DNA from: Litchfieldia alkalitelluris
Lineage (GTDB): Bacteria; Bacillota; Bacilli; Bacillales; Bacillaceae_L
NCBI RefSeq assembly: GCF_002019645.1
Contig: NZ_KV917374.1
Location: 3,732,696-3,796,695 of the forward strand
DNA: 64,000 bases
Direction of reading: 5' to 3'
Positions 22,513 through 30,005 of the stretch are shown in pieces. Both the position numbers and the translations under genes were made by a program. A model generated the notes under the pieces. The model was not told the origin of the DNA. It ran no database searches and worked only from the letters and a program-made list of their open reading frames with translations. The first letter of the stretch is position 1; the number at the start of each line of letters is the position of its first letter.

Positions 22513-23556
22513 TTAGTGTTTAATCATCTGAGTTTGAAGAGCCTCTTCCACGAGGTCTGATGCTTCGGAAATGGTTTCTGCTTTTATAGTAACAATGTTA
22601 TCTTGCGAATAGTTTTTACTCATATGCAGATATCTTGGATCATAATAGTGCTCTAGTAATAATTGAATCGCTGTGTCAAACGAGCTTTCATGTAGATTAT
22701 TTTCAATCTGATTAGCTATTGGTGTATGAATTCGATTTTTAATACGTGAAAAAGCTTCAATATACTGCTCTTGATGCTCATGAGGACGATAGTCTTCTAA
22801 TATATGTTTAACGCGCACGTCAACCGGTAAATCAATAAAAAGCTGTGTAGCTGTTTCCTTTTGCTTTAACAGGATCTCAGGTAATACAACTTTTCCTACT
22901 CTTTTACTCTCAGCCTCAAACACGACAAATGGTGAACCTTGCAATCTTTCTACTTCCTGTAAAAATAATGAGTCAAACATTTTTTGGTTATACGGTACAA
23001 GTCCTATTTGACCAAAAATAGATCCACGGTGATTTGCCATGCCTTCGATGTCCAAAACCGGGTATCCTTTTGCATATAAGCTCCTTAAAATAGCTGTTTT
23101 ACCCGTCCCAGTCCATCCATTGAGCACATAAGTCTTTGTAGGTAACTTTATATCTTTAAGTGATTCAACGACCCACTTTCGATAAGCGTTGTAGCCTCCT
23201 GACAATCTGTAGACTTTTATCCCCATTAAATCAATGACGGTTGCAGAGGTTTTGCTTCTCATTCCTCCACGCCAACAAAACACAATTTTTTCCCCACTTA
23301 TTCTCTGGAACTCTTTTATAAATGTTGGAAGCTTTTTAGAAAAGAGTTCAAGTCCACGGTCTTTTGCAGCTTCAACGCTTTTCTGTTTATAAATAGTCCC
23401 TATTTCAGCTCTTTCCTCGTTAGTGAAAATAGGAATATTGATGCTACCAGGAATCGTAGTATCATTAAACTCCGCTTGGGAACGAACATCTATTAAGACT
23501 ACTTCTTTCTTTTTGTGCAAATCAATCATCTCTTGTATTTCAATATCCTTAAACAC
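22513..23556 (-). CDS. mnmH: tRNA 2-selenouridine synthase (MnmH/SelU)
   Basis: 347 residues from a GTG at 23556, fixed by AGGAGG 7 bp upstream; an upstream TTG at 23574 would precede the site. The N-terminal rhodanese domain (LIDVRSQAEF at the front) has the catalytic Cys in VFCWRGGMRS (about residue 92). The C-terminal P-loop domain begins GWTGTGKTAIL (about 148-155). The enzyme replaces sulfur by selenium in 2-thiouridine at tRNA position 34, via a geranylated intermediate, using selenophosphate from SelD. It therefore implies the cell makes selenophosphate, which matters for the TGA-containing genes at 27.1 and 29.4 kb. selD is not in the window. Confidence 0.93.
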   Translation of the reverse strand: MFKDIEIQEMIDLHKKKEVVLIDVRSQAEFNDTTIPGSINIPIFTNEERAEIGTIYKQKSVEAAKDRGLELFSKKLPTFIKEFQRISGEKIVFCWRGGMRSKTSATVIDLMGIKVYRLSGGYNAYRKWVVESLKDIKLPTKTYVLNGWTGTGKTAILRSLYAKGYPVLDIEGMANHRGSIFGQIGLVPYNQKMFDSLFLQEVERLQGSPFVVFEAESKRVGKVVLPEILLKQKETATQLFIDLPVDVRVKHILEDYRPHEHQEQYIEAFSRIKNRIHTPIANQIENNLHESSFDTAIQLLLEHYYDPRYLHMSKNYSQDNIVTIKAETISEASDLVEEALQTQMIKH

Positions 23557-23696
23557 GTTTCTTCCTCCTGTCAACTTAAGGACACACTATCATTTTAGGA
23601 CCTTGATTTATTATATAACAAAACTTAACAAAGAGGTTACATATTATAAGTGAGTATAGATAGATAATATAGATAGCTGTTTCAATCACTTTTTCA

Positions 23697-26622: not shown

Positions 26623-27110
26623 CTAAATCACAGATTTTGAAGGGGAATGCGGCGCTAATGTTTGTTCAAAATCAATTTTCTTTGTTTCTAACCACTCAAT
26701 AGCTTTCATCACCAATGGTGAAGCCGCTTCTTTTTTTATCACTGTTATATCCAACCAATGAGCACCTAATGAGTCTTGTCCGTCAAACTTTTCAGGAATA
26801 ATGTTCCTCCCCCCTGTATTTCCACCTCATAAAATACCGCAATATGATGAACATGGGAGAAGTCTCTCCAACTCCATGGTAAAACAAAATCAGCAACTCC
26901 AAGTTGTCTAATTATATTCACCTTATATCCTGTTTCTTCTAATACCTCTCTTTTTAGTGCCTCAGATAGACTTTCTTTTTCCTCAAGGTTCCCCCCGGGA
27001 AGATCATAACGATTAATATATGGTCCGGCATTTTTCTTTATGACTAATAATCTATTATTTTGTTCGCAAATACCATAAACCCCAAAAGCTCGATGAAAAT
27101 TACCATCCAT
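26623..27110 (-). pseudogene. Nudix hydrolase, frameshifted in a G-run
   Basis: The Nudix box is intact: GGNLEEKESLSEALKREVLEE, with the Glu residues that bind Mg. The first frame ends EIQGGGTLFLKSLTDKTH, but one base shifted at the run GGGGGGAGG (about 26810) the protein continues NIIPEKFDGQDSLGAHWL... to ...HSPSKSVI and TAG at 26623, a plausible C-terminal domain. The gene is therefore a full-length Nudix (about 162 residues) with a one-base indel in a homopolymer: mutation, phase variation or sequencing error. The ATG at 27110 follows GGAGGG; an upstream ATG at 27125 overlaps the stop of the HesB-like gene (TAATG), so the two are probably coupled. Confidence 0.75.
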
Positions 27111-27124
27111 TATTTTTCCCTCCA

Positions 27125-27403
27125 TTAACTATCACAAAGATTATTCTTATCTTTTAGTCCTAACCTCCCATTTTCGTAGATAATCTCTAATCGATGGAGT
27201 TTTGTAGCAACATCTTCCCTATAATAAATGTTTAAGCCTTTTATTTCCTTCACACAATCTCCGTGTTTTAACTCATCCAGAGTTAATTTAAACTTCGATA
27301 ATCCTCAGTTACTTTTTTCATTGTATCCAATTCTAACACCTGTTTTATTACGTTTCTCCATAAGGTGTTTTAAAAAATCACTAGCACTGTTGGAAATTAT
27401 CAC
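27125..27403 (-). CDS. IscA/HesB-like protein with in-frame TGA at the Cys site (candidate selenoprotein)
   Basis: 93 codons from a GTG at 27403 (AAGGGGTGAG about 10 bp upstream) to TAA at 27125. The frame is interrupted once, by TGA at codon 33 (27305-27307). The protein reads GVRIGYNEKSN-[TGA]-GLSKFKLTLDE..., then EIKGLNIYYREDV and ...LEIIYENGRLGL, ending NNLCDS. This has the layout of A-type iron-sulfur carriers, where RIGV-x-GG-C-SG-x-LGLALDE has Cys at exactly the TGA position, 11 residues before the conserved Glu. HesB-like proteins are one of the known bacterial selenoprotein families. A 7-bp hairpin lies 18 nt after the TGA. Alternative: a nonsense mutation in a decaying region. Confidence 0.6.
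27268..27286 (-). other. Candidate bacterial SECIS hairpin
   Basis: On the mRNA strand TTAACTC-TGGAT-GAGTTAA: a perfect 7-bp stem and a 5-nt loop with G in its second position. The loop begins 25 nt after the in-frame TGA, within the spacing known for bacterial SECIS elements. It lies inside the coding sequence. The stem is A/T-rich and short, so this is suggestive only. Confidence 0.4.
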
Positions 27404-27446
27404 TAACCGCTCACCCCTTATCCCTTTATTTTTAGTTTATATTATA

Positions 27447-28079
27447 TTAGAAAGAGAATGTTTTCCCTGATGCTGAAGGCTGAAAATCCACCTTCACCTT
27501 CGGCTGGTACTTCCGCATTGCTTTCGTAGACATTAACTCTTTTAAATAATATTCGTCTTTGTAATTTTTTCTCTTTAATAACTCTAATAATTGGAAGATA
27601 TCGTCCAGCGCTCTGTGTGATTGACTTGTTGAAATTTGATGACATTTCAGAAGAGTTAATAGTTTTTTATTCGGAAATCCATAGTCTTTCCACTTTATAT
27701 TTCTCATTGAACAGTACCATTTCTTCTCGTTAATTTCAGGATACATTCTAAAAAGAAAGCTTCGATCAAAAGAAGCATTATGCGCGATAATAAAATCAGT
27801 TCTATGAAAAGCTTCCCGTATGATTAAATCGTCGAATTCCTTCCCTTCAACATCCGTAAAAGGTATACCATGTACTCGGTAAGCGACATCATAATTTGCT
27901 CTAGCTGAGGAACTTAGTGGCTCCCTAAGGTATGTATGTTCTTCAAGTACTTCTATCACTTGCCCTGTCTGATGATCATATGAGAACAAAAGGATAGCAA
28001 TTTCAACCATTTCATCAAAATCAGGACTTAAACCTGTTGTCTCGGTATCTACCAAGCATCCAATTCGATAATTATTCAT
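27447..28079 (-). CDS. 3'-5' exonuclease, DnaQ/DEDDh family
   Basis: 210 residues. Exo I is VDTETTGLSPD (Asp, Glu), Exo II is IIAHNASFDRSFL and Exo III is SHRALDDIFQL (His and Asp of DEDDh). The length is that of a stand-alone exonuclease-domain protein, with a C-terminal basic/aromatic tail. It should remove 3' nucleotides from DNA or RNA. It lies directly upstream of the HesB-like and Nudix genes on the same strand (44 bp), so the three may be co-transcribed. Confidence 0.9.
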   Translation of the reverse strand: MNNYRIGCLVDTETTGLSPDFDEMVEIAILLFSYDHQTGQVIEVLEEHTYLREPLSSSARANYDVAYRVHGIPFTDVEGKEFDDLIIREAFHRTDFIIAHNASFDRSFLFRMYPEINEKKWYCSMRNIKWKDYGFPNKKLLTLLKCHQISTSQSHRALDDIFQLLELLKRKNYKDEYYLKELMSTKAMRKYQPKVKVDFQPSASGKTFSF

Positions 28080-29366: not shown

Positions 29367-30005
29367 TTACCATTTAATAGACTTGATTATGTCAATCATT
29401 CTAAGCCTTAGGATGTCATTAATTTCCCATTCCTTTAGTTCATCTTTGATATTTGTTAGTGAACCATATCCTTTTACAAACCCATTAAGACGGGCTACTA
29501 AAGTGGAATTAATAAATTCATCATTGGTGGGATAAAGAATTTTTAGCTTTTCGATTGCATCAGGATACCTTTTCAAATAATACTTTTGGTGATAATCCTC
29601 AGCCAACGTAAACTCTTGATATGGAGAAATCTCTGTTTGAATTTGTTGTTTCGTTCTTTCTTCAATCAAATTTTTCGCTTCCTCAATTTCTGCCTTTTGC
29701 TGTTGGTTATGAAATAAAATCAGTGATTAATATTGACGACCTTTGTAAGCAGCTCGATTAGGGTTATGATTATTCCAAAAGAAGTTTACAAGTTCTCTAT
29801 AGGTAAGAACAACTGGATTAAAATCGATTTCTAGTGTCTCTGTATGGTCTCCCATTTTACGATAGGTTGGATGGGGAGTTGATCCCCCTGAATATCCTAC
29901 ACGAGTCCTTAACACACCAGGTATATGCCCAAACTGAGCATCAGGGCCCCAAAATCATCCTAACCCGAAGGTGGCGGTTTCAATGTTAAAATTGTGATTC
30001 TCCAT
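29367..30005 (-). pseudogene. msrA: Second MsrA with TGA at catalytic Cys and a later TAA
   Basis: 213 codons in one frame from ATG 30005 (AGGAGGT upstream) to TAA 29367. It reads TATFGLG-[TGA]-FWGPDAQFG, with the TGA (codon 17, 29955-29957) exactly at the catalytic Cys of GCFWG. It continues VGYSGGSTPHPTY, GDHTETLEI and YKGRQY, then TAA (codon 93, 29727-29729), then SLILFHNQQQ and the long C-terminal region EDYHQKYYLKRYP. MsrA selenoproteins are known, with Sec at this very position, so TGA could be selenocysteine. The TAA is an ordinary nonsense codon (one change from TTA Leu), so the copy as it stands cannot make full-length protein unless the base is a sequencing error. Confidence 0.7.

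Follow-up and report, generated by a model that had tools for sequence, protein, structure and literature searches.

Genes and features of the locus

The window analysed here, a stretch of 64,000 nucleotides from the Litchfieldia alkalitelluris genome (C1:3732696-3796695 of a 5.43 Mb assembly in two contigs), carries on its minus strand a short frame that opens at 27403, closes at 27125 and is interrupted only once, by a TGA at codon 33 (Table 1). The first-pass annotation had described a GTG-to-TAA frame broken at that codon only, without stating the strand, and this description is correct, as is its placement of a glutamate 11 residues past the TGA; the plus strand of the same interval contains many stops.

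Table 1. Features in and around the TGA-containing frame, in window coordinates
Feature	Position	Strand	Basis and remarks
3'-5' exonuclease-like gene, upstream	27447..28079	-	same strand; 43 nt separate it from the GTG; top-scoring model falls short of its cut-off
Shine-Dalgarno-like AAGGGGTGA	27411..27419	-	ahead of the GTG start; candidate, read from the sequence
Putative gene for a Sec-containing HesB/IscA-fold protein	27125..27403	-	92 residues, GTG start, TAA stop; homologues, structure model, fold search
TGA codon 33, occupying the position of the first Fe-S Cys in A-type carriers	27305..27307	-	TGA in 21/21 clade members read
SECIS-type hairpin, TTAACTC-TGGAT-GAGTTAA	27268..27286	-	perfect 7-bp stem; loop UGGAU at 27275-27279, G at loop position 2
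Nudix-type gene, downstream, short frame	26766..27125	-	all models under their cut-offs
mnmH, tRNA 2-selenouridine synthase, another selenophosphate user	22513..23574	-	349 bits against a cut-off of 241

It is possible that the exonuclease-like gene is co-transcribed with the Sec gene; no such neighbour was seen beside the gene in four named relatives (Bacillus sp. PS06, Litchfieldia salsa, Cytobacillus sp. S13-E01 and Alkalihalobacillus deserti, all 63-72% identical and all with TGA). On the other side, the first ATG of the Nudix-type gene overlaps the TAA of the Sec gene by one base. The Nudix-type frame, when read by eye, seems to switch frame near a run of six Cs (26809-26814), possibly an assembly error in the homopolymer. 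The first-pass annotation had also pointed to mnmH at a distance of 4 kb: the gene is real and lies about 3.6 kb away, but its link to the Sec gene is weak, since the frame lists of the four named relatives (frames of at least 80 residues) showed no neighbour shared with this locus. No tandem repeats were found between 24000 and 34000 of the window.

Some 2 kb upstream, likewise on the minus strand, is a second candidate selenoprotein gene, for MsrA (29367-30005), with a TGA at 29957-29955 in the place of the catalytic cysteine (GLG-TGA-FWGPDA). It also contains an in-frame TAA at 29729-29727, and this copy therefore looks dead; a homologue in another genome (G015), 65% identical, keeps the TGA and then runs for 195 residues to the next stop.

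The TGA codon, its hairpin and the selenocysteine machinery

The clade of Bacilli to which the gene belongs in the tree described below was read in 21 distinct sequences (the gene itself and 20 homologues) from at least 14 genus labels, and every one of them has TGA at codon 33; neither TGC nor TGT was found at this codon in any of the 20 relatives. Sampling of whole genomes gave the same picture. Among 396 genomes of the order, 79 had a match of any kind and 16 had a close gene (at least 49 bits), always with TGA, the match in two of these 16 extending across the terminal TAA as well; the TGA position was verified in 14 of the 56 more distant TGA rows of this sample, the remainder being the tool's count of one TGA. 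In the class sample (368 genomes), six had a close gene with TGA, namely our genome, L. salsa and four more, two of which (G936 and G946) are 7-8% contaminated. Among 398 genomes of the phylum, the close gene was found in our genome only, and two distant matches (35-39 bits) also carry TGA. Plasmid records gave no match. Absences in these searches, that of a Cys form included, are incomplete, because in many genomes only part of the first-look candidates (often 13) are scored, and the searches missed a canonical copy in our own genome that was later found by pattern. A fifth match in the scan of named genomes, an Omnitrophota locus with Cys at the site (L031), was rejected as spurious: it is antisense to a 429-residue frame and contains one of the peptides that served as search patterns.

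The bacterial SECIS is a hairpin placed just after the UGA, with a G early in its apical loop. Both features are found here, and the hairpin given in the first-pass annotation stands exactly as described, beginning 18 nt past the TGA, with its loop beginning at 25 nt. The conserved loop G of the SECIS is named in the Figure 4 legend of PMC1794560. Within the first 17 clade members the loop is UGGAU in 12, UGGAC in four and UGGAA in one, always 25 nt after the TGA, and UGGA recurs at this fixed distance in all 21. All 17 of these members can make stem pairs 1-4; the fifth pair is present in 16 of them, the sixth in 14 and the seventh in nine. Pair 5 is the variable one (AU 11, GC 2, CG 1, UA 1, GU 1 and one mismatch), and four of its cells have changes on both sides, compared with 0.6 for shuffles. 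None of 500 shuffles attained the covariation score of 0.204, and partners slid along the sequence gave at most 0.107; the double changes are, however, limited to one pair, a count equalled by 251 of the 500 shuffles, and a slide of +1 has two such pairs. At the protein level, codon 12 after the TGA is Leu in 12 members, Ser in two, Tyr in two and Cys in one, and codon 7, which faces it, is Leu in 16 of 17 and Ile in the other; all 17 use ACT for the Thr, and 16 use CTG for the Leu that follows.

At least four consecutive pairs form at the hairpin position in 17/17 clade members and in 14/14 TGA genes of the canonical HesB-like type, against none of 18 homologues with no TGA (19 such loci were fetched and 18 used here, L083 being omitted, and L104, a later no-TGA match of the canonical Cys type, is in neither this control nor the tree). 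Four members found later have seven, six, five and three consecutive pairs. The last of these, L103, is predicted, like L102, to fold into seven pairs interrupted by a single bulged base that lies three pairs below the loop, an arrangement reminiscent of the bulged U in the Escherichia coli fdhF SECIS. Taken by itself, the folding energy of the hairpin does not stand out (z = -1.03, with 31 of 200 shuffles folding as well; z = -1.40, -1.15 and -0.38 for the hairpins of three relatives), and in these sequence comparisons it is conservation across genomes, not folding energy, that exceeds chance. When 27000-27600 was searched against Rfam, the two matches obtained fell below their gathering scores, and no family reached its gathering score at the hairpin.

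The four genes whose presence the first-pass annotation had proposed to check are all in the genome. Genome searches found selA (552 bits, cut-off 268), selB (364 bits, cut-off 242) and tRNA-Sec (57.8 bits against a gathering score of 47, with the other 19 matches of that search below it), the last also called by ARAGORN with anticodon tca, and the three are clustered at C1:3286150-3290345. The fourth, selD (L013), is found at C1:1164052-1164981 with 426 bits against a cut-off of 125. It has an in-frame TGA near its N-terminus (SKGG-TGA-GCKIGPED), so SelD is probably itself a selenoprotein in this genome and Sec decoding is probably needed by at least one further gene. A reassigned code in which TGA is tryptophan was not seriously considered: nearby frames of 594, 461 and 353 residues close normally under table 11, and the full sel system is present.

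The gene and its relatives were also compared with the distribution of selB, counted as present at a match of E up to 1e-70 and found in 178 of the 396 order genomes. It accompanies the close gene in 16 of 16 genomes (Fisher p = 1.9e-6 against the overall 178/396, uncorrected for shared descent) and a distant homologue with one TGA in 50 of 50, as against 2 of 22 for homologues with no TGA. A search of the same 396 whole genomes for the pattern TGAGG-N20-CTCTGGAYGAG returned 98 matches in 82 genomes, with one match seen (G186) for the reversed pattern as control, and 81 of the 82 genomes have selB. The exception is G386, whose canonical match lies at G386:C15:469161-469196 and in which selB is missing at E 1e-70; recent loss of selB, an assembly gap or a diverged selB are the alternatives that we propose.

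When the 98 matches are read in frame, 13 have the motif of the clade and 85 the canonical one; all of the latter read G-x-P-x-x-G-x-A/S-L-D-E (with H for P once, in G331), of which the first G and the L-D-E are already built into the search pattern, leaving only the residues between them as evidence. One of the canonical genes is the copy in our own genome (L096, C1:1493639-1493674, AGYG-TGA-GTPKIGLALDE, ending in GNCC), and a canonical TGA gene is likewise present in 14 of the 16 order-sample genomes that carry the clade gene.

Proposed role and competing explanations

The first-pass annotation had proposed Sec insertion in a Bacillaceae host, and this is supported by the shared TGA, the sel genes, the co-occurrence with selB, the hairpin and the protein-like constraint discussed below. 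Judged from sequence, codon 33 is most probably read as selenocysteine rather than being a lesion, and the gene is in all likelihood a functional selenoprotein gene whose product would adopt the IscA/HesB fold and carry Sec in the position of the first Fe-S cysteine. SelB and the Sec-tRNA(UCA) would read the UGA, the hairpin downstream would direct this recoding, and the predicted product would be a 92-residue protein in which Sec replaces the first of the Fe-S cysteines of A-type carriers. An AlphaFold2 model (17 sequences, with Sec entered as Cys) has a mean pLDDT of 87, falling to 73 in the block of residues 31-40 around the Sec, and is predicted to have the A-type fold: its best match is E. 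coli IscA (1s98, TM 0.80 on the query, E 4.4e-5), followed by other A-type proteins. Profile searches of the window protein were uninformative by comparison, with only a weak WW_1 match in Pfam (E 0.047, under cut-off) and only an allantoinase (E = 0.26) among PDB sequences.

What such a protein might do is a separate question. With one Sec, no conserved Cys and no C-terminal Cys pair, a single chain could presumably not make a three-Cys Fe-S site, and the lone selenolate would instead most likely serve redox or selenol-transfer chemistry, or provide the one ligand for a metal or cluster at the interface of a dimer. Among the 21 members, Lys or Arg is found three residues before the Sec in 16, just before it in 12, four after it in 13 and six after it in 19, and these basic residues would favour a reactive selenolate if they lie near the Sec in space. 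We consider a redox or transfer role for the single selenol more likely than Fe-S carriage. A fuller account, which we offer tentatively and at slightly less than even chances, is that a Sec-only family split from the A-type carriers, left Fe-S carriage behind and came to exploit one selenol, set in the IscA scaffold, for redox chemistry or for the transfer of selenium or sulphur.

The competing account of function, which likewise accepts Sec insertion, is that the protein works as an A-type Fe-S carrier within the Isc/Suf network, with Sec in place of Cys as a cluster ligand. The best structural matches (IscA, SufA and their relatives) and the position of Sec at a cluster cysteine are as this account would have them, but CC or CxC is present in the last 30 residues of none of the 21 clade members, whereas a terminal CC is found in 14/14 canonical TGA relatives, and the three-Cys pattern is present in a different A-type protein of the genome (L002); we regard it as rather unlikely.

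Far less probable is a nonsense mutation, by which this strain would hold a dead or dying HesB gene. Lesions do occur nearby, in the MsrA frame with its in-frame TAA and the short Nudix-type frame, yet a mutation in one strain sits poorly with a TGA common to 20/20 clade homologues, and it is this conservation on which we reject the reading. The part of the gene beyond the TGA also bears the mark of selection on protein: in codons 13-52 after the TGA, past the hairpin, pN is 0.17-0.44 and pS 0.69-0.97, mostly saturated (codons before the TGA: pN 0.20-0.30, pS 0.53-0.99), in comparisons with 10 of the 16 aligned relatives, and with pN well under pS this part is held as protein. Finally, the copy in our genome keeps all 12 residues that are invariant across the other 16 aligned members, and 25 of the 25 that are common to at least 14 of them.

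The idea that translation truly ends at the TGA as a programmed stop, yielding a peptide of 32 residues, and that the sequence beyond is conserved only as RNA, has a negligible chance of being right, for although the hairpin is conserved with compensatory changes, the codons beyond it are under protein-type constraint and the model of the whole frame (at the pLDDT given above) finds IscA as its best match.

If the gene is indeed a selenoprotein gene, as we favour, it adds to the likely selenoproteins of the Bacilli, where ordinary gene finding would halt at the TGA. It also offers a natural experiment within one genome, where a like fold and a like hairpin core would occur with and without a C-terminal Cys pair, and the form that keeps Sec alone narrows the possible purposes of that residue.

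Comparison with A-type carriers and HesB-like selenoproteins

A-type carriers have three cluster cysteines, one Cys followed by a CxC. Relative to IscA, SufA and ErpA (PF01521), the clade is alike in its predicted fold and in the place of the first Cys or Sec, but it retains only that first position, as Sec, and is without the two C-terminal cluster cysteines; the PF01521 model recognises just 4 of 17 members with E values of up to 1. A small PF01521 protein in the same genome (L003), which we take to be of the YneR type, resembles the gene product in its size and its PF01521 match; it differs in having neither TGA nor Cys and in lying on a long branch, and is not a close relative of the clade.

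HesB-like selenoproteins are an established family, included in the tables and in one figure legend of PMC1794560, a paper that also describes a Cys form with a remnant SECIS; they are listed in PMC9312934, and the motif UxGP is assigned to them in Table 1 of PMC13188914. Mutagenesis together with 75Se labelling served to identify the member from M. maripaludis, whose function PMC11097638 describes as not clear. In the open-access literature that we searched, outside which most subscription papers fall, we did not find a description of the UGxS clade or of its Bacillaceae members.

The assignment of our gene to the HesB-like selenoproteins in the first-pass annotation stands as regards the predicted fold and the position of Sec; membership of the canonical family does not follow. 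Three features separate the clade from the canonical HesB-like group. In the tree, 17 of 17 members fall on one side of a branch with support 99/99, recovered in 100% of 200 bootstrap trees; the tree has few columns and two paralogues from our genome on long branches, uses 15 of the 19 no-TGA loci (L060, L074, L078 and L083 omitted), and is drawn from the clade without its four later members from the class sample and without our canonical copy. The motif is UGxS in 21 of 21 clade members, so that UxGP is absent from the clade, against UGxP in 14 of 14 canonical members. The third feature, the missing C-terminal Cys pair described above, is defined by what is seen in the canonical members read and not by the family definition, and the two distant TGA matches from the phylum end in CCH and ACQR rather than CC. 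Model scores do not sharpen the division. The gene product scores 21.7 bits on NF038090 (cut-off 85) and 18.7 on TIGR01911 (cut-off 66.35), our canonical copy 39.0 and 45.9, and this copy together with five canonical-type relatives 30-57 bits on both models; one of the five is a Cys form, and several are cut short at the C-terminus, which lowers their scores. Canonical members are thus also under the cut-offs, which makes the NCBIfam score a weak test that yields no clean divide.

Overall, the clade shares with the HesB-like selenoproteins (TIGR01911 HesB_rel_seleno; NF038090 IscA_HesB_Se) a fold of the IscA type, a Sec in place of the first cluster Cys, an equally spaced CUC-UGGAY-GAG hairpin and co-occurrence with selB, and it differs from them in its UGxS motif, its lack of the C-terminal Cys pair and its own well-supported branch. 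It is a variant that stands beside the known family, Sec-only as sampled, and is not novel as a kind.
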